A stretch of 64,000 nucleotides of DNA, taken from assembly GCF_900091445.1 (NCBI RefSeq), contig NZ_LT607733.1, positions 3,054,501 to 3,118,500 on the forward strand, written 5' to 3'. Of this stretch, positions 10,070 through 47,701 are shown piece by piece; the first letter of the stretch is position 1; each line of letters begins with the position of its first letter. Made by a program: the position numbers and the translations under genes. The notes beneath the pieces were generated by a model. That model saw only the letters and a list, made by a program, of their open reading frames with translations, had not been told where the DNA came from and made no database searches. Source of the stretch: Micromonospora echinofusca. Lineage in GTDB: Bacteria; Actinomycetota; Actinomycetes; Mycobacteriales; Micromonosporaceae.

Positions 10070-10090
10070 CAGTAACCCCCAGGCTTTGCA

Positions 10091-10126
10091 TACTACGAGA
10101 CGTAGTAAATACTACTGCGCGTCGTA
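10091..10126 (-). promoter_or_regulatory. Tandem operator upstream of cydAB
   Basis: A perfect palindrome TACTACG-AGA-CGTAGTA (10091-10107) is followed by a degenerate copy TACTACT-GCG-CGTCGTA (10110-10126), with centres 19 bp apart. The TACTAC/GTAGTA half-sites resemble BlaI/MecI/CopY-family operators, a family known to touch respiratory genes in mycobacteria (recollection, inference). The placement suggests direct repression of cydA. Confidence 0.6.
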
Positions 10127-10267
10127 GAGGATGCGGCAGGGGCGGGGGGCCCGAAGCGACCCGGGACCAATGACCCTGATCACCTCGGCCGGACGGCCCG
10201 CCGACGCGCATCACGTACGCCACCCGCACCACGCGGGCCGCCGCCCGCGTGCGACCATTGCGCGCTG

Positions 10268-11041: not shown

Positions 11042-11067
11042 TCCCCGGGCGTGGGCACAGTGGCGAG

Positions 11068-11646: not shown

Positions 11647-11704
11647 CCCGGTCCCGCCGCCGGCCGGTCACGCGCCGGCCACCGCGCCCGGGCATACTCC
11701 CCGC

Positions 11705-12466: not shown

Positions 12467-12484
12467 CCCGTTCGAAGGACCCCG

Positions 12485-13873: not shown

Positions 13874-13933
13874 GGCCCGCGCCCGTCCGCGCCGGCCGGA
13901 TCGGGGGACGTCGATCGGCTAGGCTGCCCGACC

Positions 13934-14644: not shown

Positions 14645-14647
14645 CGC

Positions 14648-15106: not shown

Positions 15107-15176
15107 CCGTCGACCGTAGAGAACCGGTGGCCCCGCCCGCAGGAAAGTCGGCCCGCTCGCCGGCGCCGCCGCCTGG

Positions 15177-15824
15177 TCACGCCTCGATGAGCCCGGCCCG
15201 GATGGCGTAGCGGGTCAGCTCCAGCCGGTCCCTGAGGCCGAGCTTCTGCAACAGGTTGGCCCGGTGCCGTTCGACGGTCTTGACGCTGATGAACAGCAGA
15301 CGGGCGATCTCCTTGGAGGAGTGCCCCTCGGCGACGAGCTTGAGGATCTCCTCCTCGCGTTCGGTGATGGTCCTGGCCGGCAGGCTCTCGCCCCGGGCGC
15401 TGCGCTCCAGGTAGGTGCGGATGAGGGCGTTGATGGCACCGGGATACAGGAACGGCTCGTCGCGTACGGCGGCGCGGCACGCCTCCACCAGGTCGCGGTC
15501 GGCCACGGACTTGAGCACGTAGCCGTTCGCGCCGACCTTGAGGGCCTCGAAGAAGTACTGCTCGTTGTCGTACATCGTCAGGATGAGGATGCGCAGGCCC
15601 GGCTGCTGTCGCGACAGCTCCCGGGCGGCCTGCAGACCGGTCAGCCGGGGCATGGCGATGTCGAGGATCGCCAGGTCGGGCCGCTCGCTGTGGGCCAGGG
15701 CGATGGCCTCCGCGCCGTCGCCGGCCTCGGCCACGACCGTCAGGTCCGGCTCGCTGTCGAGGATGAGGCGTACGCCCCGACGCACCAGGGCGTGGTCGTC
15801 GGCGAGCAGGATGCGGGTGGTCAC
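15177..15824 (-). CDS. NarL/LuxR-type response regulator
   Basis: A 215-aa two-component response regulator. The receiver domain (1-120) has acidic D9-D10 and phospho-acceptor D55 in LAILDIAMP. The LuxR HTH (about 150-213) carries TEREEEILKLVAEGHSSKEIARLLFISVKTVERHRANLLQKLG. It overlaps the upstream histidine kinase gene by 4 bp (ATGA), so the two are translationally coupled partners. Confidence 0.94.
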   Translation of the reverse strand: MTTRILLADDHALVRRGVRLILDSEPDLTVVAEAGDGAEAIALAHSERPDLAILDIAMPRLTGLQAARELSRQQPGLRILILTMYDNEQYFFEALKVGANGYVLKSVADRDLVEACRAAVRDEPFLYPGAINALIRTYLERSARGESLPARTITEREEEILKLVAEGHSSKEIARLLFISVKTVERHRANLLQKLGLRDRLELTRYAIRAGLIEA

Positions 15825-16777
15825 GACCGGTGCTCCCGGCCGCCGAGGGGCACCCGCAGCCGCACCTCGGTGCCGCCGTCGGGGCCGGGCGCCACGCTGA
15901 GCTGGGCGCCGATGAGCAGGGCGCGCTCGCGCATGCCCCGTACGCCGGCACCCTCGGCGGCGTCGCCGACGCCCCGGCCGTCGTCGCGGACGCGCAGCTG
16001 CACGTGGCCCGGCTGACGGGCCAGCGACAGCTCGACGGTGGTGGCCCGGGCGTGGCGCACGGTGTTGGTCAGGGCCTCCTGCGCCACCCGGTAGATCACC
16101 AGCTCGGCCTCGCCGTCGAGGGCGGGCAGGTCCGCGTCGAGGTGCTGGCGCACGGACAGGTCCGTGTGGCCGGTGACCTCCGTGACGAGGGCCTTCAGGG
16201 CACTGGTCAGGCCGAGTTCCTCCAGTACGCCGGGGCGCAGCCGGCGCGCGATGCGGCGGATCTCGTCGAGGCTGTCGCGGGTGGTCTCCTGCACCTGGGC
16301 GAGCTGGGCGCGGACCGGTTCGGGCGCGTGCCGGGCGACCTGCTTGAGTTCGAGCAGGACCGCGGTCAGCGTCTGACCGACCTCGTCGTGCAGTTCCTGG
16401 GCGACGCGGCGGCGCTCGGCCTCCTGGGCGGACAGGGCGCTGGCGGCGCTGGTGGCCCGCTCCGCCTCCAACCGGTCGATCATCGCGTTGAAGGCGCGGA
16501 TCAGGTCCGCGATGCCGGCCTGCCCGGCCGGCACCGGGCGGGGCTCGGGCTGAAGCAGGTCGAGCGTGGTCATGGCCCGGGTCAGCCGGTGCAGCGGCGC
16601 GAGGCCGACGCGCAGCAGCGCGGCGTTGGCCACCAGCATCGCGGCCAGGCCCACGGTCAGGACCACCGCCTCGGTGAGCAGGACGGGGGTGGACACCGTG
16701 ACCGGGCCGAGCAGCAGCAACGTGGCGGCGACGAGCACGGCGGCGTTGAGCAGGAAGATCCGCCAGAACAGCGACAC
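15821..16777 (-). CDS. Sensor histidine kinase (HisKA_3 family)
   Basis: A 318-aa membrane sensor kinase of the NarX/DesK type. Two N-terminal transmembrane segments (about 5-25 and 34-55) are separated by a very short external loop, so it probably senses the membrane or an intramembrane signal. A HAMP-like linker (about 56-108) leads to the HisKA_3 dimerisation helix with phospho-acceptor H130 in AQELHDEVGQTL, and the HATPase domain carries N-box EALTNTVRHA and DDGRGVG. I start at GTG 16777 after GAGGAGAGGAG. It pairs with the overlapping response regulator. Confidence 0.92.
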   Translation of the reverse strand: MSLFWRIFLLNAAVLVAATLLLLGPVTVSTPVLLTEAVVLTVGLAAMLVANAALLRVGLAPLHRLTRAMTTLDLLQPEPRPVPAGQAGIADLIRAFNAMIDRLEAERATSAASALSAQEAERRRVAQELHDEVGQTLTAVLLELKQVARHAPEPVRAQLAQVQETTRDSLDEIRRIARRLRPGVLEELGLTSALKALVTEVTGHTDLSVRQHLDADLPALDGEAELVIYRVAQEALTNTVRHARATTVELSLARQPGHVQLRVRDDGRGVGDAAEGAGVRGMRERALLIGAQLSVAPGPDGGTEVRLRVPLGGREHRS

Positions 16778-17044
16778 GGCGGCTCCTCTCCTCGCGGCCC
16801 GTCCCTGACGCCGGGCGGCGTCGGCGGTTTCCCGCGGCTCGTCACGCCACCCACGGGCCCGCCCCGCGGCGGTGATCACCCTCATCATCCTCAGCCTGTC
16901 GGCCGGGGCGCGTGCGGTAAATGCGTGCCCGCACCCATTATCCGTCGCGCCACCGCCGGCAGGACCGCCGGCAGGGACCTGCCAGCACGGCAAATGGGTG
17001 TCAGCCCCGATGTCGACCCGCCCGGCGGCGATGACCATGAACGT

Positions 17045-17074
17045 GAGCCCGGGGCCCGGAGCAGCCCCGGGCTC
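17045..17074. terminator. Strong GC hairpin in 432-bp non-coding stretch
   Basis: Perfect 11-bp arms GAGCCCGGGGC (17045-17055) and GCCCCGGGCTC (17064-17074) with an 8-nt loop. It lies about 135 bp upstream of the KhtT-like gene in the non-coding stretch 16778-17209, where I see no other gene, known riboswitch core or repeat. It could be a leader attenuator for the KhtT-like gene or a structured region between divergent promoters. No T-tract follows. Confidence 0.5.
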
Positions 17075-17209
17075 CACTTCCCCTGCCCGGCTCCCGCTAC
17101 CGCATCGTCACCATGATCATGACCGCGCCGATCGCCCGGGTGTCCCTGTGGCCGCGCTGATTCGCCGCGTAGCCGCCGTCGCGTTGTGCGACCCGACAGG
17201 AGGAGAGAG

Positions 17210-17695
17210 ATGCAGATAGAACGAGTGCCGCTGCCCGGCGTCGGCGTCGGCTACACCGTGCACACCGAGCAAGGCCAGGTGCTCGGGATCGTCTGCCACC
17301 GTGGCGGCCGACGCGACGTCGTCGTCTACGCGCCCGGCGACCCGGACACCGTGGAACGGTCCGTGACCCTGAGCCCGGCGGAGGCGCAGGAGGTGGCGGA
17401 GCTGCTGCACCCGATCGCCACCGTCGACCACGTCACCCACCTGCAGCGGCACCGGGAGGCGATCAGCGTCGCCGAGCTGCCCGTCACGGCCGCGTCGCCC
17501 TACGACGGGCGGACCCTGGCCGAGGCCGTCGCGCGTACCCACGGGGTCAGCGTCATCGCCGTCGTGCGCGACGGGCGGACGACCACCGCTCCGGGGCTCG
17601 GGCACGTCCTCGTCCACGGCGACGTCCTGGTCGTCGCCGGGGCCCAGCCGAGCATCGGCGCGCTGAGCCGCGCGCTGGTCCACGCCGAGCTGTAG
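17210..17695 (+). CDS. KhtT-like TrkA-C regulatory subunit of cation/proton antiporter
   Basis: A 161-aa cytosolic protein. The N-terminal domain (about 1-75) recalls KhtT/YhaT proteins (RVPLPGVGVGYTVHTEQGQVLGIVCHRGGRRDVVVY), and the C-terminal RCK_C/TrkA_C domain (about 85-160) contains VAELPVTAASPYDGRTLAEA and VLVHGDVLVVAGAQPSIG. Such proteins gate a CPA2 K+/H+ antiporter (KhtU), whose gene normally follows; here none does, so it is an orphan. ATG 17210 follows GGAGGAGAGAG, a textbook ribosome site. TrkA-C domains in related proteins bind cyclic di-AMP or other nucleotides (established for the family). Confidence 0.82.
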   Translation: MQIERVPLPGVGVGYTVHTEQGQVLGIVCHRGGRRDVVVYAPGDPDTVERSVTLSPAEAQEVAELLHPIATVDHVTHLQRHREAISVAELPVTAASPYDGRTLAEAVARTHGVSVIAVVRDGRTTTAPGLGHVLVHGDVLVVAGAQPSIGALSRALVHAEL

Positions 17696-17726
17696 GCCGC
17701 GAGCAACCGACGCGGGGCCGGGCGCC

Positions 17727-18725
17727 TCAGCCGCGGCGGCGGGCTCGGGCCGCCCAGATGGCGTACGCGGGGTCGCGGTCGAGGTTGTGCCGGTCGCGGT
17801 CGTAGCGGCGGGTGGTGCGCGGGTCGGCGTGGCCCATCGCGTCCTGCACGTCCTCCAGGGGCACCCCCTCGGCGCGGGCGGTGGTGGCGAACGCGTGCCG
17901 CAGCGAGTGCGGCGACAGCCTCGCCCACGCCGCGATGCCGGCCGAGCGGGCCAGCCGGCGCACCAGCCGGAACATGGCGTGCCGGTCCAGCCGGGCCCCG
18001 CTGGCGGTGACCAGCAGCGGACCCGTTAGCTCGTGCACCGCCACGCCCTGCGCGGCGGCCCGCTGGGCCAGGTACGCGTCGAGGGCGTACGCGGTGCCGG
18101 GGGTCAGGGCGCGCCGGCGCAACTTGCCGCCCTTGCCGACGAACCGCACGCTGCGGTGGCCTCGCTCCGCGCCGAGGTCGGCCAGGTCGAGCGAGACCAG
18201 CTCGCCCACCCGCAGCCCGAGGTCGGCCAGCAACGCGACCGCCGCCCGGTTGCGGGCGGCGGTCGGCCCGGTGTCGGCCTCGGCGGCGGCGAGCAGCGCG
18301 TCGACCTCCTCGGGGGTGAGGCCGACCGTCGCGGAGTGGTCCCGGTCGATGCGGGGGCGGTCGGCCCCGGCGACCGGGTTGGCCTCGACGGCGCGCAGCT
18401 TGACCAGGAAGTCGTACCAACTCGACAGGGCCGAGAGCCGGCGGGCGACGGTGGCCGGGGTCAGCGGCTTGCCGGTACGCGCGCCGAGGGTGGCCTCCAG
18501 GGCCCGGGCGTACTCGTTGACGTGCAGGAAGTTCGCGTGCAGCGGGTCCAGCTCGCGGGCGGCGCACCAGGCGAGCCAGCCGGCGACGTCGCGCCGGTAC
18601 GCGTCGCGGGTGTGCTCGGACAGCCGCCGGTTGCGCAGCCACGCCTCGGTGAAGTCGACGGGTCCCCCGGGCAGGGCCAGCGGGGTGGGCCGGCTTGGCC
18701 GCGCCGGAGCGTTCGGGGAGAACAT
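17727..18725 (-). CDS. Tyrosine recombinase/integrase
   Basis: A 332-aa tyrosine recombinase, distinct from the one at the left edge. A core-binding domain (about 22-115) precedes the catalytic domain, with catalytic residues R172 (LGLRVGELVSL), K198 (VGKGGK), H273/R276 (HSLRH), H299 (MGHAD) and nucleophile Y308 (RRYDR). Start chosen at ATG 18725; upstream in-frame sequence overlaps the ABC-F gene. The start codon is within a 6-11-6 inverted repeat. No attachment-site duplication or phage genes are nearby, so it appears to be a resident chromosomal recombinase. Confidence 0.9.
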   Translation of the reverse strand: MFSPNAPARPSRPTPLALPGGPVDFTEAWLRNRRLSEHTRDAYRRDVAGWLAWCAARELDPLHANFLHVNEYARALEATLGARTGKPLTPATVARRLSALSSWYDFLVKLRAVEANPVAGADRPRIDRDHSATVGLTPEEVDALLAAAEADTGPTAARNRAAVALLADLGLRVGELVSLDLADLGAERGHRSVRFVGKGGKLRRRALTPGTAYALDAYLAQRAAAQGVAVHELTGPLLVTASGARLDRHAMFRLVRRLARSAGIAAWARLSPHSLRHAFATTARAEGVPLEDVQDAMGHADPRTTRRYDRDRHNLDRDPAYAIWAARARRRG

Positions 18726-18740
18726 GTGAAAAAGGTTCTC
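18718..18740. promoter_or_regulatory. Inverted repeat over recombinase start
   Basis: GAGAAC (18718-18723) and GTTCTC (18735-18740) flank an 11-nt A/T-richer spacer and cover the ATG of the recombinase. It may be an autoregulatory or recombinase-binding site; the chance of a random 6-bp pair is not negligible. Confidence 0.3.
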
Positions 18741-18772
18741 AGCTTCGGGTCGGGAACGACAGGAGGCGCGCC

Positions 18773-20410
18773 CTACGCGATCGTAGCCACCGCCGGTTGT
18801 TCGACGAGGCGCCGGTCGGTCAGCCGCCACCGCCGGTCGACCCCGACCGCCTCGGCGAACCAGGCGTCGTGGCTGACCATCACCAGGGTGCCCCGGTACT
18901 GCCGCAGCGCCTCCTCCACCACGTCGAGGGCGTCGAAGTCGAGGTAGTTCGTCGGCTCGTCGAGCAGCAGCACCTCGGCCGGGCTGTTCACCAGCACCGC
19001 GAGCAGCAGTCGACGCAGCTCACCGGCGGAGAGCACCCGCAGCGGCGCGTCCCACTGCTCCGGGCCGAACAGGTGGGCGTCGAGCAGCCGTTCGGCGTCG
19101 TCGACGTACACCGGCACCCGGGAGCGGAAGAAGTCACGCACGCTGACGTCGGTACGCAGCGCGTCGTGGGTCTGCGGCAGCACGGCGACCGGTCCGGCGG
19201 CGACGACCTCGCCCCCGGCGGGGTGGTCCTCGCCCGCGAGGACCCGCAGCAGGCTGGTCTTTCCGGTGCCGTTCGCGCCGGTGAGCAGGATCCGCTCGCC
19301 CGCGCGGACGCTCACATCGACGCGGTCGAGCAGCACCCGGTCGGCCACGCGCAGCGTCAGGCCCCGCGAGCGCAGCACCTCGCGCCCGCCGGTGGACTCC
19401 TGCGGAAACGCCAGCGTCAGCGGCGGGCGGGTGCGGGGCTCGGCGAGCCAGCGGATCGAGTCCATCTGCCGGCGCAGCCGCCGCTCGCGGGCCTTGGCCT
19501 TCTTCGCCACCTTCTTGGCATAGCGGCGCTGCTGGTCGGCGCCGAGGCCGCTGCGCACGGACTCCTCGACCCCGCGGGCCTGTTGCTTGGTGCGGTCGAT
19601 GTCGGCCAGCCAGCGCCGGTGGTCCTTCTGCTGGGCCTCGTAGTCCAGCAGTAGCCGCTGCCAGCGGCGGGTCTTCTCCGCCCGGTAGTCGGTGTAGCCG
19701 CCGGTGTAGGTCTGCGGCGTCTCGTGGATGCCGTCCAGCTCGACGATCCGGGTCACCGTACGGTCCAGCAACGCCCGGTCGTGGCTGACGAGCAGCACCG
19801 CGCCGGGAAAGGCCGCCAGCCAGTCGCCGAGCCAGCCGATGCCGTCGGCGTCGAGGTGGTTGGTCGGCTCGTCGAGCACCAGCAGGTCCGGGGCGTGCAG
19901 CAGCACCCGGGCGAGGGTGAGCCGGGCCTGCTCGCCCCCGCTGATGCGGCGCAGCGGGGTGTCGTCGTGCAGGTGGTCGATGTCGAGTCGCTGGCGGACC
20001 TCCGTCAGCCGGGCCTGCGCCCGCCAGCCGTCGAGCGTCGCCCACCGCTCCTGCGCGTCGCCGTACGCGGCGAGCACCGTGTCGTCGCCGTCGGCCATCC
20101 GCCGTTCCAGCTCACGCAGCCGCGCGGCCAGCGGATGCAGCTCGCCGAGACCGGCGACGAGGAACTGCCCGACGGTGGCGTCCGGGTCCGGCACCTGCTG
20201 GGCGAAGTAGCCGACCCGTAGGCCGGGGGCCAGGGCCACGTGCCCGCCGGACGGCGGCTCCTCGCCGATGAGCACCCGCAACAGGGTGGACTTGCCCACC
20301 CCGTTCGGGCCCACGAGACCGACCCGGTCGCCGGCGTTGAGGACCAGCTCGACGTCGGTGAACAGCGGCTCGGTGTCGTAGTGCTTGCTGACGGACACGA
20401 CCTTCAACAT
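18773..20410 (-). CDS. ABC-F family ribosomal protection/translation factor
   Basis: A 545-aa soluble protein with two ABC ATPase domains and no transmembrane segments. Walker A GPNGVGKS (about 34-41) and GANGTGKT, signatures ISGGEQARLTLAR and LSAGELRRLLLAV, Walker B LLVLDEPTNHLD and LLLDEPTNYLD. The central linker (about 245-320) is basic and alpha-helical (KKVAKKAKARERRLRRQ), the part that enters the ribosomal E site and reaches the peptidyl-transferase centre. The second signature is degenerate (LSAGE), as in several antibiotic-resistance ABC-F proteins. It probably displaces ribosome-targeting drugs (inference). Confidence 0.9.
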   Translation of the reverse strand: MLKVVSVSKHYDTEPLFTDVELVLNAGDRVGLVGPNGVGKSTLLRVLIGEEPPSGGHVALAPGLRVGYFAQQVPDPDATVGQFLVAGLGELHPLAARLRELERRMADGDDTVLAAYGDAQERWATLDGWRAQARLTEVRQRLDIDHLHDDTPLRRISGGEQARLTLARVLLHAPDLLVLDEPTNHLDADGIGWLGDWLAAFPGAVLLVSHDRALLDRTVTRIVELDGIHETPQTYTGGYTDYRAEKTRRWQRLLLDYEAQQKDHRRWLADIDRTKQQARGVEESVRSGLGADQQRRYAKKVAKKAKARERRLRRQMDSIRWLAEPRTRPPLTLAFPQESTGGREVLRSRGLTLRVADRVLLDRVDVSVRAGERILLTGANGTGKTSLLRVLAGEDHPAGGEVVAAGPVAVLPQTHDALRTDVSVRDFFRSRVPVYVDDAERLLDAHLFGPEQWDAPLRVLSAGELRRLLLAVLVNSPAEVLLLDEPTNYLDFDALDVVEEALRQYRGTLVMVSHDAWFAEAVGVDRRWRLTDRRLVEQPAVATIA

Positions 20411-36545: not shown

Positions 36546-37061
36546 TCACACTTCTGTCGCAGGTCTCGATTCCGACACGAGCGGTGCGTCCTCCCGTGCC
36601 AGGAGGTAGCGGGCGGCCGCCATCAGCGCCTCGGGCGAGTCCTGAAACGCGCCGAGGCCGATGTTGCACTCGCCGCAGAGCAGGCCACGCACCTGCCGCG
36701 AGTTGTGGCAATGGTCCACGACGAGGCGAAACGGTTCGGAGTTCGGTGTCCCGTCAAGTCGTGGCCGGCCTCTGGACCTGACCTTCAGTTCGCTCTCATG
36801 ACGACCGCAGATGGCGCACCTGAACTCCTGAGCCACACGCCGCGCGTCGTACTCCTGCGGCCTGATCCGGTAGAAGGACCAGAGGTTGTCGGCTCGGATC
36901 TTGTCCGGATTGGCTCTGCGGTTCTTGTGGTTGTTGGCGCGGGCGTACTCGCGGCACGAGGCGCACGAGACCAACTCGCGGCCGGCCTTCATGAAGCTCT
37001 CGAGCGGTCGGGTCTTCTCGCATCGGTGACACACCTTGGACACGCCACAACAATACTCCAT
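36546..37061 (-). CDS. Endonuclease VII-like HNH protein
   Basis: A 171-aa protein with the recombination endonuclease VII (T4 gp49-like) zinc/His-Me finger. Two N-terminal Cys pairs (CHRC, CASC), then CAICG, the catalytic block RLVVDHCHNSRQVRGLLCGECNIGLGAFQDSPEAL with the DHCH metal-finger His, and a second CxxC. Phage relatives cleave branched DNA. Solitary genomic copies are common in actinobacteria and often phage-derived. ATG 37061 lies inside a 9-bp inverted repeat and has no clear ribosome site; GTG further in is possible. It borders the transposon graveyard, so horizontal origin is plausible. Confidence 0.82.
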   Translation of the reverse strand: MEYCCGVSKVCHRCEKTRPLESFMKAGRELVSCASCREYARANNHKNRRANPDKIRADNLWSFYRIRPQEYDARRVAQEFRCAICGRHESELKVRSRGRPRLDGTPNSEPFRLVVDHCHNSRQVRGLLCGECNIGLGAFQDSPEALMAAARYLLAREDAPLVSESRPATEV

Positions 37062-37069
37062 ATTGTTGT
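37047..37069. promoter_or_regulatory. AT-rich inverted repeat at endonuclease start
   Basis: Perfect 9-bp arms ACAACAATA (37047-37055) and TATTGTTGT (37061-37069) around CTCCA, enclosing the ATG. It sits in a locally AT-richer stretch up to about 37160. It may be a repressor operator or a translation-blocking hairpin; the A/T composition stands out from the core genome. Confidence 0.55.
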
Positions 37070-37266
37070 TACCCAAGAACAGTCATTATGGTGTGCGGGC
37101 GATTCGCCCCTTTCGTCCGCACGTATTATCGGATTTTCGTTACCGGTAATTCCGTAATTTATCAGCAGGGCACCCCTCTCGTTCCGGGTGAGCTGAACCA
37201 GGCTTACCTCGGTCGTCGGGAGAGCCGGCGGGGCGAGTGGAAGATGCTCGTCCATACTGGTCCGCC

Positions 37267-37596
37267 ATGGACCTGGACGAGTACCAGCGTGGGGCCCTCC
37301 GTACGGCCGCCCCACGTGACAGGAAGAACGAACTGCTCCACCTCGTGCTCGGACTGGTCGGCGAGTCCGGTGAGATCGCCGAGAAGTTCAAGAAGTGGGT
37401 CCGGGACCTCGACAGCGACGAGTCACGCATCGACCGGGCCGACATCGCCAAGGAACTCGGTGACGTCCTCTGGTACGTGGCGGTGCTCGCCGACTACCTC
37501 GATCTCACGTTGGACGACGTCGCGACCGCCAACCTGGCCAAGCTGGCCAGCCGCCAGGGCCGTGGCGTGCTGGGTGGCAGCGGCGACAACCGCTGA
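37267..37596 (+). CDS. MazG-like nucleotide pyrophosphohydrolase
   Basis: A 109-aa all-alpha NTP-PPase. The metal-binding EXXE-12-28-EXXD motif is present: GLVGESGEIAEKFKKW (E-x-x-E) and IAKELGDVLWYVAVLAD (E-x-x-D). Enzymes of this type hydrolyse nucleoside triphosphates or dNTPs to the monophosphates and PPi (house-cleaning). Phage and island versions are common. ATG 37267 is chosen although its upstream ribosome site is weak. Confidence 0.88.
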   Translation: MDLDEYQRGALRTAAPRDRKNELLHLVLGLVGESGEIAEKFKKWVRDLDSDESRIDRADIAKELGDVLWYVAVLADYLDLTLDDVATANLAKLASRQGRGVLGGSGDNR

Positions 37597-38658: not shown

Positions 38659-38805
38659 CCGCTGCGGCCCCCGAGCCCGAGCAGAAACCGTGGCCGCTTC
38701 GCGATCCCGACACCGCTGCGAGGTGACCGGCGGTCCACATGGTCGACGCGCCGTGTGGCCCGATCTGGGTTGCGGCCCGCGCCACCACTCGGACAAGCTT
38801 CCCGG

Positions 38806-39498
38806 ATGCCTGCAGCTCACGCGTATCACGACCAAGCCGGTGACGTCTTCGCGGCACACGCCGCCGACGGTTCGCACAATGCCTACACGGACCGGCCGGC
38901 CATGCTCACGCTCGCCAGCGACGTCGCCGGTCTCCGGATCCTGGACGCCGGCTGCGGCGGCGGCCACTACGCGGCCGAGTTGGTGCGCCGGGGAGCCGAG
39001 GTGGTGGCGGTGGACGGCAGCGCGGCACTGGTCCGGCACGCCCGGGCCCTGCTCGGCGATCGCGCCGAGATCCAGCAGCACGACCTGGACACTCCGCTGG
39101 AATTCGCGGCCGACGCGTCGTTCGACGGGGTCGTCTGCGCGCTGGTGCTGCATCACCTCACCGACCGGGCCGGTTTCCTCGCCGAGGTACGGCGGGTGCT
39201 GCGGCCGGGCGGCTGGTTCCTGCTGTCGACGACACATCCGACGTCGGACTGGGGCTACTTCGGCGGATCGTACTTCGACGAGAGCTGGGTCGGGTTTTCT
39301 ATGGCCGACGGGATCACCATGCGTTTCCAGCGGATGACGCTCGAATCTCTCATGACCGAGGTGCTCGACGCGGGGTTCGTGTTGGAGCGGCTGGTCGAGC
39401 CGAGGGCGGTCGAGACGCTGCGCGCCATCAACCCGGAGCGCTACGAGCGACTGACCGGGCGCCCGAGCTTCGTAGCCCTGCGCCTGCGCCGCCCCTGA
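38806..39498 (+). CDS. Class I SAM-dependent methyltransferase
   Basis: A 230-aa enzyme. Motif I ILDAGCGGGHYAAELV (about 44-59), acidic strand-2 end VVAVDGS, motif IV FDGVVCALVLHHLTD and LRPGGWFLLSTTHP. The fold is Methyltransf_11/25-type; small molecule substrates are typical. ATG 38806 is preceded by CCCGGATG without a strong ribosome site. Monocistronic. Confidence 0.9.
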   Translation: MPAAHAYHDQAGDVFAAHAADGSHNAYTDRPAMLTLASDVAGLRILDAGCGGGHYAAELVRRGAEVVAVDGSAALVRHARALLGDRAEIQQHDLDTPLEFAADASFDGVVCALVLHHLTDRAGFLAEVRRVLRPGGWFLLSTTHPTSDWGYFGGSYFDESWVGFSMADGITMRFQRMTLESLMTEVLDAGFVLERLVEPRAVETLRAINPERYERLTGRPSFVALRLRRP

Positions 39499-39691
39499 CG
39501 ACGCCCGTTGCAACTCGTACGCCGCCACGTGCTCCGTGCAGTCGTCCGGGCATGGGCCGGCGGCGGTACGCAACCGTCCTCATCTCCGTCCCCGCCCGGC
39601 TGCGGCTGCTGCGTGACCCGCCTCACGCATGTCACAACGCCCGGTCGCCCGGTGTCTTCAGGTCGAAGGCCCCACAAGCGAAGGAGACACC

Positions 39692-40891
39692 ATGACCGGC
39701 AACACCGATGTCGTCGTGATCGGCGGCGGATACGCCGGCGTCATGGCGGCCAACCGCCTGACGCAGCGCACCGACGTGCGCGTGACCCTGATCAACCCGC
39801 GCCCGACCTTCGTCGAGCGGGTCCGCCTGCACCAGCTGGTGGGCGGGTCCGACGACGCGGTCGTCGACTACACCGACGTCCTGGCCGGGCGCGTACGGCT
39901 GGTCGTCGACACCGCGACCCGGATCGACGCCGCCGAGCGCCGCGTGCGGCTGGCGACCGGCGGCACTCTCGGCTACGACTACTTGATCTACGCCGTGGGC
40001 AGCGGCAGCGCCGACCCGGACGTGCCCGGAGCCGCCGAGTTCGCGTACCCGATCGCGAGCCTGGAGGACGCGCGGCGGGTGCGGCCTGTCCTCGACGCCG
40101 CCCCCGACTCGGCCCCCGTCACGGTGGTCGGCGCGGGCCCGTCGGGCATCGAGACCGCCGCCGAGCTGGCGGAGACGGGCCGCGCAGTGACCCTGGTCTG
40201 CGGCGGGGTGCTCGGCCCGTACCTGCATCCTCGTGGCCGACGTGCGGTGGCCCGGCGGTTGGCGAAGCTCGGCGTCACCGTGCTCGAAGGCCCCGACGCG
40301 ACGGTGACGGCGGTGGCCCGCGACGCCGTGCGGCTCGGTGGCGGCCGCGAGTTGCCCAGCACGGTCACCATCTGGACCGCCGGTTTCGGCGTGCCGGACC
40401 TGGCCGGCCGCAGCGGGCTGAGCACCGACGCCCTGGGACGCCTGCGCACCGACGAGACGTTGACGAGTGTGGACGACGCGCGCATCGTGGCGGCCGGAGA
40501 CTCGGCGGCGCCGTCGGATCTGCCGTTCCGGATGGGCTGCCAGTCGGCGATGCAGCTCGGGCCGCAGGCCGCCGAGACGGTGCTCAGCCGGATCGCGGGC
40601 CGGCAACCCGCGCCGGTCGCGGTGGGTTTCGCCGGCCAGTGCATCAGCCTGGGGCGGCGTGCCGCCGTCTTCCAGTTCGCCCGCCGCAACGACGCCGCCG
40701 TGAGGTTCCACCTCGGCGGCCGGCCGGGCGCGCGGCTAAAGGAACTCGTGTGCAGGAGCATCGTCTGGCAGCTGTCGTACGAGGCGCGCAAGCCCGGCGC
40801 GCGCGCCTGGTGGATCAGCGACGGCACGCGCCAGCATCTGCTCCGGGCCAGGCGGAGCGAGGCGCCCACCAGCGCAGGACAACCGGCCTGA
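39692..40891 (+). CDS. FAD-dependent pyridine nucleotide oxidoreductase (NDH-2-like)
   Basis: A 399-aa flavoprotein. FAD-binding GxGxxG in VVVIGGGYAGVMAANRL (about 8-24), a second dinucleotide fold in VTVVGAGPSGIETAAELAETGRAVTLV (about 143-169), and FAD-contact RIVAAGDSAA (about 267). No disulfide active-site CxxC. Resembles type II NADH:quinone reductases and related rubredoxin/nitrite reductase-like proteins of actinobacteria. ATG 39692 follows GAAGGAG. The electron acceptor is not defined by sequence. Confidence 0.88.
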   Translation: MTGNTDVVVIGGGYAGVMAANRLTQRTDVRVTLINPRPTFVERVRLHQLVGGSDDAVVDYTDVLAGRVRLVVDTATRIDAAERRVRLATGGTLGYDYLIYAVGSGSADPDVPGAAEFAYPIASLEDARRVRPVLDAAPDSAPVTVVGAGPSGIETAAELAETGRAVTLVCGGVLGPYLHPRGRRAVARRLAKLGVTVLEGPDATVTAVARDAVRLGGGRELPSTVTIWTAGFGVPDLAGRSGLSTDALGRLRTDETLTSVDDARIVAAGDSAAPSDLPFRMGCQSAMQLGPQAAETVLSRIAGRQPAPVAVGFAGQCISLGRRAAVFQFARRNDAAVRFHLGGRPGARLKELVCRSIVWQLSYEARKPGARAWWISDGTRQHLLRARRSEAPTSAGQPA

Positions 40892-41181
40892 CCAGGCATC
40901 GTGCGGCCCCCGCCCCGGGGCCGCTCGTGCGGCGGCGCATCCACAGCGGGGGGAGCCGCCGTACGAGGGCGGTCACCGGACGGTCAGGTGCCGCGCTGGT
41001 CGAGCGAGCCGTCGGGCCCAGGCGACGGCGAAGCGGCGCGGAGAGCTCGGCGATCGGCTGGTCCGTACCGGCCTTTGTGGACGCTCGGGTCACCCTTCGG
41101 CCGATGGCCGCCGCGCCGCGGGCGCGTAGCGTACGGTGTCGAAGCGGTGACCCCGGACCAGTCAGCGTCGATAGGAGCACC

Positions 41182-41268
41182 ATGATCGCGGAGACGGTGG
41201 AATGCGCCTACTGCGGACAGCCGAAGTCGGACCGGGTGCGCAAGTGCCCACACTGCGGCAACGGCTGA
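41182..41268 (+). CDS. 28-aa zinc-ribbon microprotein
   Basis: A very short frame, MIAETVECAYCGQPKSDRV and on to CPHCGNG: two CxxC knuckles (positions 8-11 and 22-25) separated by 10 residues, with basic residues between. ATG 41182 has AGGAG four to eight bases upstream. Such minimal zinc knuckles may bind nucleic acid or partner proteins. The 290-bp stretch upstream (40892-41181) shows no other gene. It ends 7 bp from the convergent unknown gene and belongs to the CHAT neighbourhood. Confidence 0.55.
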   Translation: MIAETVECAYCGQPKSDRVRKCPHCGNG

Positions 41269-41275
41269 CGATCCG

Positions 41276-41680
41276 CTACCGCACCCGCACCTGCATGACC
41301 TGCCCCTCGGGATCGGTGCGCACCTCGAACGGGCGCTGATCGGCGGTTCCCTCCGCCGACCACGACCTGTCCACCAGTTGCACCACCTGCAACACCTCGA
41401 TCGTCGCGTACCCGACCGAGGTGAGGTGACCCGCGATCGCCGTGGCGATGCTGGCGGCAGTCGGGGAGGAACGCCTCGCCAGGAAACCGCGTGCGCGCAG
41501 CTGAAGCGCCACGGCCTTCAGCACGTCGTAGGTGAAGTTCCCGGTCACACCGGCCAGGACGGCGTCGCGGAGGAAGTCGGTGACGTCAAGAGTGTGGGCC
41601 GCATCCGACAGTTCATCCTCGGCAACTCCGTCCAGCACCAGGGAGGAACCGTCGTCCAGGGGCACGAGCAGTTGCGTCAT
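41276..41680 (-). CDS. Hypothetical protein divergent from CHAT gene
   Basis: A 134-aa protein of unknown function, predicted alpha/beta, without signal or membrane segment. It opens with MTQLLVPLDDGSSLVLDG, followed by helical parts (VTDFLRDAVLAGVTGNFTYDVLKAVALQLRARG) and a C-terminal beta-like end (FEVRTDPEGQVMQVRV). ATG 41680 is preferred; another ATG two codons upstream exists. It is divergent to the CHAT-TPR gene with only 47 bp between the starts, so both share a compact control region. It may be an adaptor of the CHAT protein (inference). Confidence 0.68.
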   Translation of the reverse strand: MTQLLVPLDDGSSLVLDGVAEDELSDAAHTLDVTDFLRDAVLAGVTGNFTYDVLKAVALQLRARGFLARRSSPTAASIATAIAGHLTSVGYATIEVLQVVQLVDRSWSAEGTADQRPFEVRTDPEGQVMQVRVR

Positions 41681-41727
41681 GCACACATGCTGGCAGACCC
41701 GCGCACCATGATCGTGGGAAGGATCGC

Positions 41728-44580
41728 GTGGAGGGTTACCCCGGACGCGGGCGCGTGTGGTGGCTCGGTTTCTGGCAAACCGCCGAGTACGCCCACTGGT
41801 GGCTCAGCGCAGACGTACGCCTGCTCGACAGCGCCGGCCCGCTGGCCGTGGGCTCTGTCGCACTCGACCGGCTGGCCGCGCCACTGGCCGCCCTCTCGGC
41901 CTCGCTGCCGGGTCTCGTCGCGAAGGAACGGGCAACGCTCGCCGACGTCGACCGCCGCATCGCGCAGGCACTCCCCCAGCACGACGACCCCGCGTCGACG
42001 GCTTCCGCCATCGCCAGGCGCATAGAACTCCTCGGCGAGCGGGTCGCTGTCCTCAACGGTGCCGCCCGTCGCTCCTGGACCGGCGCGATGGTCGACCCGG
42101 CCGCCAACCTCGCCCTGTTCCGCGAGCTGGGCAGCATCCTGCTGCCGAAGGAGCTTCGCGATCGGATCCGGACGGCGGACGCACACGACACGACGCTCGT
42201 CGTAGCGCCGGGTCCCGGCCTGTCGAGCGTGCCGTGGGAGCTTCTCGTCATCGACGACGAGCACGACGTCCGGCTCATCGAACGCGCGAACGTCCTGGGT
42301 GGAATCAGCCCGGCCATGCTGGTCAACCTGGCGAGACCGGCGGCACCCTGGACTGGCGACGGCCCGGCCGTACGGGTCGTCGATCCCACTGCGGCCGGAA
42401 GCCGGAACGGTGGCGGGCGCATCTACCCCGACGGGGTGCCCGAGGCGTGGCGCCGCCGCAGCGACGACACGGACGCGCTGCTCGGCGCGGGTGCGACGGT
42501 GGGCTGCTCGCCCTCGGAACTGGCCGCGGCCCTCCAGTCGCAGGCGTGGTCCCGGCTGGTGTTCGTCGGCCACGCCTCGGCCACGGACCCGGCGATGCCG
42601 ACCTCCGCTGGCCTGGAACTGGCCGTCGACGGGGAGACCGGGAACTCGCGGCTCACCGCCGGGCAGTGGCTGAGGGAACCCGCGCGGTGGCCCGCCCCAC
42701 GCCGGGTCGGCTTCGTCGCCTGCCAGTCCGACGACGCCGGGTACACCGAGCAGATCGGTCTCACCCTCGCGGCGATGAATGCGGGTGCGCGCACCGTGAT
42801 CGCCACCCGTTGGAGCCTGCCGAGCGACGGCTCGGAGCGCCTCGTGGCCGGCGGGGCGCCGATCGGCTCGGCCACGACCGCGCTCGCGCTGGCCGTCGAT
42901 GCGGCGCTGGAGACGACCGATCCCGTCGGGGCCATCGGCGAGTGGCAGCGTGACCGGCTGCGCTGCTGGCGGACCGCCAGCAGCGCAGCCGCACGCCGCC
43001 TGCACGCCCCGTTGGTGTGGTCGGCGTTGGTGAGCTACGACATTCCGGACGCTGCGGTCCGAACGATCCCAGGGGTCGACCACCCCACGCAGCGACGCCT
43101 CGAACCCGGGTCACCACGTCCCGACGTCCCCCGGTGGCAACCGGGCGACGACGCCGCCGAGGTGGCGAAGAACAGGTTGGCAGCCGGCGTGGCGGCGTTC
43201 GGCCGCGCCGACTGGCCCGAGGCGCGCGAGCACTATCTCGTAGCCCTGGCCGCCTTCGCCGCCCGCAAAGACCTGAAGGGCGTCGCCGACGCCACGACCA
43301 ACGTCGGCAACGCCGCGTACTTCATGGGTGACCTGGAGGAGGCTGCCGACCGGTACCACACGGCCCTGCCCCTGTACCGGGATCTCGACCTCGATCGGCA
43401 GGCGGCCGTCGTCGGGCAGAACCTGGGCAACGTGTCGTTTCAGCGCGGCGAACTCGATGTCGCCGCGCAACAGTACCGGGAGGCCGCCGAAGCCCTGCTC
43501 AGAGGCGGGTTTCGTCGGCACGCAGCGGACACGCTGGTGAACCTGGGTGCGGTACTGATCGAACTGGGTCGCCCGCGCCCCGCCCTCGAACACCTCGACC
43601 AGGCAGGGGACCTGTACCGGGAGACGTGCGACGAAGGCGAACTGGGCGGCAAGCTCGCCGAACTCGACCAGAACACGGCGTTGGCGCTGGCCGGGGTGAA
43701 GTCCTTCGAGCGTGCCCGCGCCCATCTGCTCTCCGCCCTGCGGCACTGGCAGACCGACGATCCGTCGCCGGAGCGGGCCGCGCGCATCAACCACAACCTG
43801 GGTCTCGTGGCGTTCCGCGCGGGCGACCTGCCGGAGGCGCAGCTCAGGTACTCCCTCGCCATGAAGCACTTCCACACGGTGGGCAACGAGCACGAGGCGG
43901 CCGACGCCAGGCTCGGCCTGGGAACCGTCGCCCGCAACCGGGGCGACGTGGGCGAGGCCCGGGCGAACTTTCGGCAGGCGCAGGAGCACTACCGCAGGAC
44001 GGGGCAGTGGCTGGCCTACGCCCAGGCCTCGTTCAACGAGGGGCTGACCTATCCGAGTGACAGCGGCCAGAGATTCGACCTGCTGGCAGGCGCGTGGGCG
44101 GCAATGCAGTCGATGTCGTGGCGGCTCTCGCACGTCAGCGAGCGGGCCGGCTGGCGCGCCGCCCTCGACCACGCCAACGACGAGGTTCTGGAGTCCGCTC
44201 GCCGCAGTGGACGCACGCGTCAGTTCGTCGAGCTGCTCGAGTCGTTGCGGATAGCCGGCACGCTGCGCCGCGCCACGCCGACACGACTGCCTCCGGCGCA
44301 CCCGTCAGAAGTCGACCGGGACGCCCCGTTCGCCGAACCACTACCGTCGATGACGCTCTCCGCCGGACCGCTCACGCCCTGGGCACCGTCGTCAGCCGCC
44401 GACGAGGCGCCCTGCGACGCGCCACCCTGGATCGACTGCGGCTGGCCACCCACCCTGGTCGACGTCGTGGCGCGCGCCGAGGAGATCATCGCCGTCGCCG
44501 GGACGACGACACCTCCCCTACGCCGGGGGACGGTGTCGCTGATCCCGTTACTGCACCGACATCCGCCTGCCGACCAGTGA
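41728..44580 (+). CDS. CHAT-domain caspase-like protease with TPR repeats
   Basis: A 950-aa cytosolic protein. The CHAT (caspase HetF associated with TPRs) domain spans about 145-435; the catalytic dyad is visible as H282 in LVFVGHAS and C332 in VGFVACQSDD. Residues about 470-800 form TPR-like helical pairs (AEVAKNRLAAGVAAFGRADWPEAREHYLVALAAF, ATNVGNAAYFMGDLEEAADRYHTALPLYRDL, and so on; roughly eight repeats). The Pro-rich tail (about 840-950) is probably disordered. Family members include TPR-CHAT (Csx29) of type III-E CRISPR systems and other prokaryotic conflict effectors, where TPRs sense a partner and CHAT cleaves a target. GTG start after GGGAAGGA. No CRISPR locus is nearby. Confidence 0.9.
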   Translation: MEGYPGRGRVWWLGFWQTAEYAHWWLSADVRLLDSAGPLAVGSVALDRLAAPLAALSASLPGLVAKERATLADVDRRIAQALPQHDDPASTASAIARRIELLGERVAVLNGAARRSWTGAMVDPAANLALFRELGSILLPKELRDRIRTADAHDTTLVVAPGPGLSSVPWELLVIDDEHDVRLIERANVLGGISPAMLVNLARPAAPWTGDGPAVRVVDPTAAGSRNGGGRIYPDGVPEAWRRRSDDTDALLGAGATVGCSPSELAAALQSQAWSRLVFVGHASATDPAMPTSAGLELAVDGETGNSRLTAGQWLREPARWPAPRRVGFVACQSDDAGYTEQIGLTLAAMNAGARTVIATRWSLPSDGSERLVAGGAPIGSATTALALAVDAALETTDPVGAIGEWQRDRLRCWRTASSAAARRLHAPLVWSALVSYDIPDAAVRTIPGVDHPTQRRLEPGSPRPDVPRWQPGDDAAEVAKNRLAAGVAAFGRADWPEAREHYLVALAAFAARKDLKGVADATTNVGNAAYFMGDLEEAADRYHTALPLYRDLDLDRQAAVVGQNLGNVSFQRGELDVAAQQYREAAEALLRGGFRRHAADTLVNLGAVLIELGRPRPALEHLDQAGDLYRETCDEGELGGKLAELDQNTALALAGVKSFERARAHLLSALRHWQTDDPSPERAARINHNLGLVAFRAGDLPEAQLRYSLAMKHFHTVGNEHEAADARLGLGTVARNRGDVGEARANFRQAQEHYRRTGQWLAYAQASFNEGLTYPSDSGQRFDLLAGAWAAMQSMSWRLSHVSERAGWRAALDHANDEVLESARRSGRTRQFVELLESLRIAGTLRRATPTRLPPAHPSEVDRDAPFAEPLPSMTLSAGPLTPWAPSSAADEAPCDAPPWIDCGWPPTLVDVVARAEEIIAVAGTTTPPLRRGTVSLIPLLHRHPPADQ

Positions 44581-44645
44581 CGATCGACCGGTTGCCGGAC
44601 GGCACGGGTAGGCGATCCGACCAGACCACGGAGGTGGCTCACCCC

Positions 44646-45083
44646 ATGTTCCCACTCAAGCTGGCGCACCAGGCCAAAGGCACGCCTGTGGAGACCCTGC
44701 ACAAACTCGTCGAGGCGGCAGATCTCGTGATCACCGTGCAGGGCCCCGGCGAACTCGGCGAGATCGTCCGCGACATCGTTGCGGCGGCACCCCGCCTCGC
44801 CGAGGACCACGAGGTCAGAGCCGACGGCCTGATCATGAGTCGGGTGGGTCTCTACCGTGTCTTCTGGGGCGCGCTGAGGTGCCCCGGCGGGAGTCTGGCC
44901 ATCCTGGTCCCGCTCTCGCTGCACGACGGACAGGAGGTCAGCGAGTGGACCCGGCACTTCATGAACGAGGTGCTCGACCCGGTCCGGGGCCTGTCGCGGC
45001 AGGGCTACTCCGTCGGCGGTGGCGGTAACGGGATGGTGACCGAACGGGACTTCTGTCACGCCTTCACGCAGGCTCACACCTAG
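44646..45083 (+). CDS. Hypothetical protein downstream of CHAT-TPR
   Basis: A 145-aa cytosolic protein, unrecognised, predicted alpha/beta (VETLHKLVEAADLVITVQGPGELGEIVRDIVAAAPRLAEDH; LYRVFWGALRCPGGSLAILVPLSLHDG; a Gly-rich YSVGGGGNGMVTERDF near the end). ATG 44646 follows GGAGGTG at good spacing. It lies 65 bp after the CHAT gene in the same direction, so it is likely co-transcribed and may be the substrate, regulator or co-effector of the CHAT protease (inference). Confidence 0.72.
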   Translation: MFPLKLAHQAKGTPVETLHKLVEAADLVITVQGPGELGEIVRDIVAAAPRLAEDHEVRADGLIMSRVGLYRVFWGALRCPGGSLAILVPLSLHDGQEVSEWTRHFMNEVLDPVRGLSRQGYSVGGGGNGMVTERDFCHAFTQAHT

Positions 45084-45099
45084 CCCGCAACTGTCGCGG

Positions 45100-45466
45100 T
45101 CAGCGGTGGTCGTTCTCCTTCAGCTCGATCACCCAGGCGCGCCGCTCGGCGATCCTGCCGTCGCGCATGACGAACACCTCGGCCATCGACATGCGCATCT
45201 CCTCGCCGGTGTCGCGGCGCACCGAGCCGACGAGCTCGGCCATGACCGTGTCGCCCTGCTCCACCATGCGTACGACCTCCAGGTGGGGCGGCGGCACGAA
45301 CCCCGGGCCCCTCGATGGCGGCGTCGTAGGCCTCCTTGCCCTTGAGGTGGAAGGCGCCGAACACCGTCCACTCGATGTCGTCGGTGAGGCAGGACAGGAT
45401 CTGCCCGTGGTCGTTGCTGCGGAAGCCGTCCAGGTAGGTCTCGACGGTCTGCGTGTTGCGTGACAT
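45100..45466 (-). pseudogene. SnoaL/NTF2-like protein, frameshifted
   Basis: Starts normally at ATG 45466 (NTQTVETYLDGFRSNDHGQILSCLTDDIEWTVFGAFHLKGKEAYDAAIEGPG). The frame changes at a G/C homopolymer around 45300-45312 (GGGGCCCGGGG on the coding strand), after which the other frame continues with FVPPPHLEVVRMVEQGDTVMAELVGSVRR and ERRAWVIELKENDH to a stop at 45100. Together they make a normal NTF2-like protein of about 121 aa. It may be a true mutation or an assembly error in the homopolymer. The ligand is unknown. Confidence 0.75.
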
Positions 45467-45574
45467 CCGGCGGTGTCCCCCTCGTCCTCGGCGGGCCTGC
45501 CCGACGGCAGACCCGCCGAAGCTAACCCCGAGGTGCGACAGGCCCGGACGGGACGCGCCGGCCGGGCGCGCATC

Positions 45575-45874
45575 TCAGGACGAGGTCTGCCGCGACCGGT
45601 TGTTGGCGTGCTTGCGGACCGCGAAGGCGTACGCCTCGGCGAGCAGTTGCCGCACCGTGGCCAGGGTCGCCTCGCCGGGGTTCACCACGCACACCCAGTG
45701 CTGCGGCGCGTAGCCGGGATGCGGCAGCACGGTGTCCGTCACCGTGTGGTCGACGCCGCCGTCGGAGCCGTACGGGAACAGCCTCGCGTACGCCGAGCGG
45801 GTCAGCCCGACGTTGAGCCGCCACGCATCCGGTCTGCCCAGCGCGGAGGCGTCGTCGTAGTGGTCGCCCGTCAC
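45575..45874 (-). CDS. DUF6194-like protein, probably N-terminally truncated
   Basis: A 99-aa frame, GTG start, with DAWRLNVGLTRSAYARLFPY, PHPGYAPQHWVCVVNPGEATLATVRQLLAEAYAFAVRKH, the C-terminal two-thirds of the DUF6194 family (usually about 150 aa). The missing N-terminal part should precede ...LPFATIVTGDHYDDASALGR, which is still readable in frame upstream, but further upstream lies the end of the hemerythrin gene. So the gene was probably fused to or truncated by the neighbour, and may be inactive. Confidence 0.6.
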   Translation of the reverse strand: MTGDHYDDASALGRPDAWRLNVGLTRSAYARLFPYGSDGGVDHTVTDTVLPHPGYAPQHWVCVVNPGEATLATVRQLLAEAYAFAVRKHANNRSRQTSS

Positions 45875-45911
45875 GATCGTCGCGAACGGCAGCTGTCGCT
45901 CGGCGGGCAGG

Positions 45912-46745
45912 TCAGCCGGCGCCGTCGAGGACGGGGATCAGCTGCTCCTCCTCGTACGTCAGGTGGGCCTCCAGCTCGGTGGTGAGGCGCTCGACCTCCC
46001 GGCGGGCCTCGGCGGGATCGCCGTCGGGGTCCCCGACGACCTGCTGCAGACGTGCGACCAGCGCCGCGATGCGTTGGTGCTCCTCGCGCAACCGTGCCAG
46101 GGCCGGCGCGAGGTCGGGGCGCTGCCCGTCCAGGCGGGCGAACATGCCGTCGTCCTCGTTGCGGTGATGGTGGTGCAGGCCGTGGCAGAAGGTCAGGCAG
46201 TTGACCCGTAGCTGCGCGCCCAGACCCGGACCGGAGCGGGCCACCTCGTCGCGGATCAGCGCCAACTCGCGGCGGAACGCGTCGTGGATCAGCTTGAGCG
46301 CCGCTCCCCAGGACGCCGCTTCCGGCGGACCGCCCGCCACCTGGTGCAACGCCACCACGGGGATCACGCGCGAGGTCTTCGCCTGGTATGCCGCCCACCC
46401 CGGATCGGCCTCCACGGCGCGGGCGAAGATCTCGTCGCGTTCGGCGCCGGTCAGCACCTCCGCGCGGGCCTGGTAGGTGAAGACCCCGTCCTCGACGGTG
46501 GCATGCGGGTCGGCGACAAGGTTGTGGTACCAGTCCGGGTGCCTCGGACCGCCCCCGGCCGAGGCGATGACGAGGATGCGTTCCTCGCCGTCGGGCAGAT
46601 AGCCGACCGGGGTGGTGTGCGGGGCGCCGGAGCGGGCCCCGATGGTGGTGAGCAGGATCAGGCGGGCCCCCTCGAAAGGGCCGCCGACCCGGCCGGAGTT
46701 GGCGCGGAACTCGTCGATGATCTGCTGGTTGAAGTCGTTGGGCAA
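45912..46745 (-). CDS. F420-dependent nitroreductase (DDN)-like domain fused to hemerythrin
   Basis: A 277-aa two-domain protein. Residues about 5-125 form a deazaflavin-dependent nitroreductase (DUF385/DDN) domain (FEGARLILLTTIGARSGAPHTTPVGYLPDG, HPDWYHNLVADPHATVED). Residues about 145-275 are a hemerythrin HHE four-helix bundle with its di-iron ligands visible: LIHDAFRRE, FCHGLHHHHRNEDDGMF, LREEHQRIA and LEAHLTYEEEQLIPVL. The fusion may couple F420H2 reduction to O2, NO or iron sensing (inference). I start at TTG 46745; a longer frame upstream is low-complexity. The ribosome site is weak. Confidence 0.82.
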   Translation of the reverse strand: MPNDFNQQIIDEFRANSGRVGGPFEGARLILLTTIGARSGAPHTTPVGYLPDGEERILVIASAGGGPRHPDWYHNLVADPHATVEDGVFTYQARAEVLTGAERDEIFARAVEADPGWAAYQAKTSRVIPVVALHQVAGGPPEAASWGAALKLIHDAFRRELALIRDEVARSGPGLGAQLRVNCLTFCHGLHHHHRNEDDGMFARLDGQRPDLAPALARLREEHQRIAALVARLQQVVGDPDGDPAEARREVERLTTELEAHLTYEEEQLIPVLDGAG

Positions 46746-47163
46746 TGCTCTGCTCTCTGCTCGGGCAGGAGATGCGGCCACGGTGGATCGCCCGCCCGGC
46801 GACCGGTGGCGGCGAGGATGTGGGATACGCCGGCGTACGACCGGCGTGGACGGTGGAAAGGCGCGTGCGGCAGACGACGCGGCGCGGTGGACGTGGCGTC
46901 GACACCGGCGGGTGCGGGGCGTCGGCGGGCCGCGGGCCCGCCCCCGGCTCACCTGCCGGCCGGGTGCCCTGTCCGCTCGTGGCCCATGGCCGACCCGGCA
47001 GTCACGACTGCGACCCTAGTGCCGCTGCCGGCGGCCGGCAAGCGCCATCGGGTTCCGGGTACGGAGTGGACGAGCTCGGTTGGGCGACCGAGGGTGACCG
47101 GCAGAGCTGCTGGACCACCGCCGCGCCCGTGGCGCACGACCTGCTGGCGTACGCCGGCCAGGG

Positions 47164-47640
47164 TCAGCGGGCGACCCGACGCCGCCAGGGTGGTCGCCAG
47201 CCTCGCCGGCGTGGTGCGGCCGGCGGGGCAGGGGGCGCCGGAGCCGTTGCGGCGGCGGTCTCCCGCTCGGCCCGCCAGCGGCGGACCACCTCGTCGGCGT
47301 TGACGGGACGCACCGCGACCCGGGGGCCGGTGGGCGTACGCAGCCACGAGAGGATCTGGGCGTTGAGGTCGGCGACGAACGCGCGTACGGAGGCCTCGGT
47401 CGGCAGGTCCCGCACCTCGTCGGGTACCCGTTCGATGCGGCGGCGCAGTTGCAGGGGCGTCGGCAGCAGCAGGTCGGTGGGGAGCTTCTCCCGCTCCAGG
47501 AAGCTCTTGATCCACCACGACTCGTCGTACGGCTGGCCACGGCCGGGGATCGGCTTGCCCATGCCGGGCAGGTTGTCGAACTCGCCCTGCTCCTGCGCCG
47601 CGCGGATACGCGCCTCGACCGTCGCTTCCCAGCTGTCCAC
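47164..47640 (-). CDS. DUF1992 (DnaJC28-like) protein
   Basis: A 158-aa protein with the DUF1992/DnaJ homologue subfamily C member 28 conserved domain at 1-75: WEATVEARIRAAQEQGEFDNLPGMGKPIPGRG and WWIKSFLEREKLPTDLLLPTPLQLRRRIE. The C-terminus is Ala/Pro- and Arg-rich and variable. No J domain. GTG 47640 is used; longer upstream frames are arginine-rich artefacts. Function unknown. Confidence 0.88.
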   Translation of the reverse strand: MDSWEATVEARIRAAQEQGEFDNLPGMGKPIPGRGQPYDESWWIKSFLEREKLPTDLLLPTPLQLRRRIERVPDEVRDLPTEASVRAFVADLNAQILSWLRTPTGPRVAVRPVNADEVVRRWRAERETAAATAPAPPAPPAAPRRRGWRPPWRRRVAR

Positions 47641-47701
47641 CCGCCGACACCTCCCCGGCCCACGGTAACGCGGCCCACCCCGTCGGGGCCGACGGAAGAG
47701 G

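Follow-up and report, generated by a model that had tools for sequence, protein, structure and literature searches.

To our knowledge, most of what is known about bacterial CHAT-TPR proteases comes from the CRISPR-linked Craspase. A caspase/TPR ternary conflict system named CATRA was reportedly described by Burroughs and Aravind in 2020, and we presume from the names of Pfam families that it involves TPRs and small partners. CATRA appears as a caspase-dependent ternary conflict system in one mention in the accessible part of PMC8195603. For Craspase, the accessible parts of two studies (PMC10028731 and PMC9729208) describe an auto-inhibited TPR-CHAT protein that target RNA switches on and that cleaves Csx30, a sigma factor inhibitor; both gating and the cutting of a locus-encoded partner are shown there by experiment. 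Cell death is not shown even for Craspase, because fragments of Csx30 were harmless to E. coli and conferred no defense against three phages (PMC10028731, accessible part). Here, we describe a block of four genes in a 64-kb stretch of the Micromonospora echinofusca genome (7.0 Mb, single contig; NZ_LT607733.1, positions 3,054,501 to 3,118,500, hereafter "the window", with positions counted from its first base), which encodes a CHAT-TPR protein together with a zinc ribbon microprotein of 28 amino acids and two small proteins of 134 and 145 amino acids (p134 and p145). The same block lies at different chromosomal places in two genomes and therefore suggests a transferable proteolytic switch.

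The CHAT-TPR gene block at two chromosomal sites

The window was compared with 18 kb around the corresponding locus of another genome of the same genus (G006), 16 kb of a further genome (G004), and a Geodermatophilus contig (megablast-type blastn, E-value 1e-5). The sole match of the 64 kb covers positions 41093 to 45073 and lies in G006 (86.45% over 4016 alignment columns), and the window flanks gave no match in the 18 kb around the G006 locus. On the left, this shared block starts some 90 bases upstream of the zinc ribbon gene, and on the right it stops within the last codons of p145. A whole-genome search with positions 38700 to 47700 of the window, scoring 9 candidates per genome, placed the block at 7.39 Mb of G006 and a piece of the window's right flank at 3.29 Mb, with nothing else reported. 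One gene set is thus seen at different sites with abrupt ends of homology in this one genome pair, suggesting that the block has been inherited and transferred as a unit.

Between the window and G006, the rate of nonsynonymous change per site (dN) is below that of synonymous change (dS) in all four genes (Nei-Gojobori method, NG86). The zinc ribbon proteins are identical, with 5 synonymous and 0 nonsynonymous changes (dN/dS of 0/0.34), and from this purely synonymous change it can be argued that the 28-amino-acid microprotein is genuinely coding. The values for p134 are a dN of 0.083 and a dS of 0.343 (ratio about 0.24), those for the CHAT-TPR gene 0.093 and 0.306, and those for p145 0.128 and 0.268 (ratio about 0.48).

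The central gene (41728 to 44580, plus strand) encodes 950 amino acids from a GTG start. Its product begins with a region carrying a WWLGFWQ...HWW motif, followed by the CHAT domain, TPRs at about residues 472 to 770, and a conserved C-terminal PPWIDCGW tail. The CHAT assignment rests on a match of residues 130 to 375 to Pfam family PF12770 (52.4 bits against a cut-off of 24), and TPR_12 matches in four stretches from about residue 472 on. G281-H282 and A331-C332-Q333 are found without exception in 14 of 14 aligned CHAT sequences (counting the window, one partial record, and three members without TPRs), and His282 and Cys332 recur in all 25 rows of a wider alignment that likewise includes the window. 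The codons were verified as CAC at 42571 to 42573 for His282, the first residue of the predicted dyad, and TGC at 42721 to 42723 for Cys332, the predicted nucleophile, both on the plus strand. By these features, the protein would be a caspase-fold cysteine protease with proteolytic activity. An alternative start lies at GTG 41755 (MWWLGFWQ), where the relatives P0003, P0004, and P0008 begin. Two further observations concern CHAT sequences: a perfect 18-nt inverted repeat with a 1-nt loop sits within the coding sequence at positions 42955 to 42991, and elsewhere in the same genome there is another CHAT match, a stronger one of 120 bits, at G000:C1:3404370-3405107 (L001).

Csx29 of Craspase likewise joins a CHAT domain with a His/Cys dyad to TPRs, and its neighboring genes encode a substrate and regulators, according to the accessible text. 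Unlike in the window, where CHAT occupies residues 130 to 375 and the TPRs start at 472, the TPR part of Csx29 is N-terminal and its CHAT part C-terminal (PMC9729208, accessible part), and Csx30, given as 565 amino acids long in PMC10028731, is far larger than p134 and p145. In the 64-kb window, no match to an Rfam family attained the gathering score, and no Cas model scored above noise in the 4 block proteins and 10 flanking proteins. We do not claim membership of the Craspase family, because CHAT and TPRs stand in the opposite order and the nearby regions that were scanned yielded no CRISPR and no Cas gene, Cas7-11 included. None of the block proteins matched a CATRA-type Pfam model, CATASP included, at an E-value of up to 1; the CATASP model PF20271 also found nothing in the M. 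echinofusca genome, but its control was equally silent.

Small partner genes and their constancy

The zinc ribbon gene (41182 to 41268, plus strand) encodes a CxxC-x10-CxxC motif and matches Zn_ribbon_3 (PF13248) with 32.5 bits against a cut-off of 27. It stands tail-to-tail with p134 (41276 to 41680, minus strand; 134 amino acids from an ATG), which diverges from the CHAT-TPR gene. Downstream of the latter and on the same strand follows p145 (44646 to 45083, plus strand, from an ATG); a reading of 168 amino acids from GTG 44577 is possible, and we take the protein as 145 amino acids long because all of its 13 database homologues have this length and start at that methionine. p134, with 8 homologues in the protein database, gave no match in Pfam, NCBIfam, or PADLOC at an E-value of up to 0.05, and p145, queried in its 168-amino-acid reading, matched no family in the same three libraries.

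Structure models of p134 (predicted local distance difference test score, pLDDT, of 78; 11 sequences) and p145 (pLDDT 76.5; 15 sequences) found no significant fold match; the C-terminal half of the p134 model at most hints at a cystatin-like fold. In a search bearing on the Craspase partners Csx30, Csx31, and CASP-sigma, profiles of both proteins gave no match below an E-value of 0.06 against PDB sequences, with no direct comparison with Csx30 being made. A 15-base stretch spanning the zinc ribbon start, GCACCATGATCGCGG (41177 to 41191), recurs with one change at 41703 to 41717 in the gap between p134 and the CHAT-TPR gene and is possibly a shared control element.

The preliminary description of this DNA had presented the locus as a 950-amino-acid protein with an intact His282/Cys332 dyad and subsequent TPRs, next to a co-directional 145-amino-acid gene and a two-knuckle zinc ribbon, with no CRISPR locus; the open reading frames, domain matches, and alignments bear out these gene features, and no CRISPR locus turned up in the nearby regions scanned. 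Its divergent 134-amino-acid gene is equally real, and the distance of 47 bp between the two starts holds for GTG 41728, but the gap may instead be 74 bp because the CHAT-TPR protein may begin at GTG 41755.

Three loci with the CHAT type of the window were read as DNA (the window, G006, and Geodermatophilus L003), and p134 is divergent from and adjacent to CHAT in all three. In Amycolatopsis CB00013, the p134 and CHAT genes bear consecutive locus tags (AMK34_21960 and AMK34_21965). The zinc ribbon and p145 are each present in 2 of the 3 loci and are looser partners than p134 in this comparison. The Geodermatophilus locus resembles that of the window in its divergent p134 homologue (46% identity) and in the similar CHAT N-terminus (WWLG...YWW), but its CHAT gene is unfused between two TPR genes, and a different gene of 104 amino acids follows. 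p134 looks like a core component because it still lies beside CHAT at this locus, where the TPRs are separate genes. A weak PD-(D/E)XK nuclease-like gene (L003, 96 to 554; E-value 0.0035, below cut-off) adjoins p134 there on the same strand. Conservation of all three partners with CHAT, as first proposed, therefore stands for p134 and is confined to 2 of 3 loci for each of the other two; lack of conservation had been named as grounds for dropping the proposal, and the neighborhood comparison did not refute it. The genes are real and linked, and the set has no named equivalent in the libraries searched.

Farther upstream in the window, a recombination endonuclease VII-like gene and a MazG gene lie at positions 36546 to 37596, about 4 kb from the block.

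Distribution and a wider set of CHAT loci

The genome counts given here are lower bounds, because for each genome the prevalence searches score no more than a few first-look candidates. A close CHAT region (E-value of up to 1e-12) has a patchy distribution and occurs in 2 of 160 genomes of the genus, that of M. echinofusca included. At the level of the order, 59 of 397 genomes match CHAT, and the 58 matching genomes among the 396 others are all at 30 to 42% identity; the CHAT lineage itself is thus not unusual in these searches. One of 390 genomes in the Pseudonocardiaceae-like family of G441 matches at an E-value of 1e-40 and 45% identity. Close relatives in the protein database, where only the 7992 candidates with most words in common were scored, come from Micromonospora (95% to M. 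echinofusca), Lentzea, Actinokineospora, Amycolatopsis, and Umezawaea. Among the partners, p134 was found in 1 of 397 genomes at order level, the window's own, and hence in 0 of the 58 genomes whose CHAT is solely of the wider type (the CHAT and p134 draws have identical tallies), p145 in 1 of 296 genomes at class level, again the window's own, and a degenerate DNA pattern of the zinc ribbon in 2 of 26 genomes, which are the two block carriers.

From the 58 genomes, 20 distant CHAT loci were fetched, and they contain a recurrent set of four genes, for which no existing name was found, that encode a CHAT protein of about 400 amino acids, a TPR protein of about 540 amino acids, and members of two families of about 350 (p350) and 450 (p450) amino acids. 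p450 is present in 18 of 20 loci and p350, the TPR gene, and a called CHAT gene in 19 of 20 each (at L087, CHAT was missed by the gene finder). This set spans several actinobacterial families and occurs also on large plasmid records of Streptomyces and Nocardia (L069-L088, L004, L005, L105, L106). Its CHAT proteins align to parts of the first 440 amino acids of the window's protein at 30 to 42% identity with the dyad kept and stand near a TPR gene. Unlike in the window, however, CHAT and TPR are mostly separate genes and their companions are two larger unnamed proteins, whereas p134 and p145 occur in none of the 20 loci and in none of L004, L005, or two plasmid loci. The window's gene looks like this CHAT fused to its TPR neighbor with another partner set. 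L005 and L086 carry fusions with the TPRs before CHAT by match positions, which is the order of Craspase and opposite to that of the window.

No credible Pfam or NCBIfam name emerged for p350 and p450 (DUF2196 matches a single p350 member of 20, at 0.0035), and neither gene was called at locus L038. When 41 p350 and p450 proteins were searched by tblastn against the window, L038, L003, L068, and L092, the eight best matches all fell in L092 (E-values of 1.5e-4 to 0.04), and the window yielded nothing better than 0.04; profiles of p134 and p145 matched the p350 and p450 families at chance level.

L092 itself (G513, 7723 to 19500) holds an intermediate CHAT (41 to 45% identity) without p134 and p145. 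Its operon-like group comprises CHAT, a TPR gene matched only weakly (below cut-off), and two unnamed genes, in whose region short p350-like matches occur (best E-value 1.5e-4), and diverges from a protein kinase gene, an unmatched gene of 409 amino acids, an AAA_2 ATPase gene, and an incomplete gene that is radical-SAM-like by eye.

Possible working and meaning of the block

We favor the view that the block is a four-gene transferable CHAT-TPR proteolytic signaling cassette with a TPR-gated protease and p134 as the likeliest direct regulator or substrate, a reading that we consider about evenly poised between right and wrong. By analogy with the described systems, the C-terminal TPR superhelix would hold the CHAT protease inactive until a trigger meets the TPR arm, or a small partner bound to this arm, and releases the protease, whose His282/Cys332 site would then cut one specific protein. 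p134 could be the direct regulator or substrate, as in securin/separase or Csx30/Csx29, and it is the likeliest candidate because it stays with CHAT whether the TPRs are fused or encoded by separate genes; p145 and the zinc ribbon may act as accessory sensors, adaptors, or effectors. Its activation would lead to a response against stress or invaders, possibly one that arrests growth or kills the cell, and a conflict or cell-death role, as put forward in the preliminary description, is plausible. Tentatively, the block may also be seen as an undescribed mobile actinobacterial immune or cell-death module with a CHAT-TPR core and partner sets that can be exchanged (p134, p145, and the zinc ribbon here; p350 and p450 elsewhere), in which p134 serves as a gatekeeper whose release or cleavage would fire the response.

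Several observations weigh against the cassette. Defense models matched the four block proteins only with a generic TPR hit at an E-value of up to 0.1, the zinc ribbon matched Cas10 (E-value 0.15) and Cas12u1 (0.19) at noise level, and the 10 flanking genes scanned are mostly ordinary metabolic ones with a single PADLOC match, a methyltransferase. The Geodermatophilus contig (only 7.5 kb) has no p145 and no paired CxxC motif of the zinc ribbon kind. In G004, a p145 gene (63%) persists about 180 bases after a 25-residue CHAT-TPR remnant, and Streptomyces has p145 homologues yet no protein among the scored CHAT candidates; p145 is a looser partner because of these cases, one that exists independently and is tolerated where CHAT is not intact. 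Complete blocks were seen in DNA only twice, in the window and G006, so that the strength of the case is a block found as a unit at different sites and its weakness is that this is one pair.

The metabolic flanking genes also fit a protease with a part in regulating normal physiology (development, envelope, or metabolic stress) that would respond to an endogenous cue and process a host regulator, with the small proteins tuning it. Related CHATs are indeed common in actinobacteria (58 of 396 other genomes of the order), with a TPR gene beside 19 of 20 and the dyad kept, but the rarity of the block and its different sites would be odd for a core regulator, and we regard this explanation as rather unlikely. 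That the small genes are mere passengers in a transferred stretch, with CHAT-TPR a lone scaffold or regulator, would account for p145 in G004 and Streptomyces and for the missing zinc ribbon motif in Geodermatophilus; it seems highly improbable given that p134 (46% identity) is still next to CHAT in Geodermatophilus, as in the window, and that the block ends coincide with the gene set.

The divergent p134 could alternatively encode the inhibitor of a constitutively active killer protease in the manner of a toxin-antitoxin pair. Antitoxin genes are usually co-directional with their toxin genes, however, and p134 has no significant fold match (Foldseek best E-value 0.15). The published TPR-CHAT is moreover auto-inhibited without an inhibitor peptide (PMC9729208, accessible part), and we deem such a pair improbable. 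Hardly credible, finally, is an effector of the Craspase kind that would serve, in trans, a CRISPR locus far from the block: both systems comprise CHAT and TPR proteins with a His/Cys dyad, but the domain order is opposite, and the scans of the window for Rfam families gave no match and those of the block and its 10 flanking genes for Cas proteins nothing above noise, with the rest of the genome not searched for CRISPR.

If the cassette works as proposed, a self-contained CHAT-TPR unit with a fixed small partner and no local CRISPR would make it possible to study what triggers such proteases in the absence of an RNA guide and which targets they cut. It would also test the idea that bacterial caspase-type switches are interchangeable modules.
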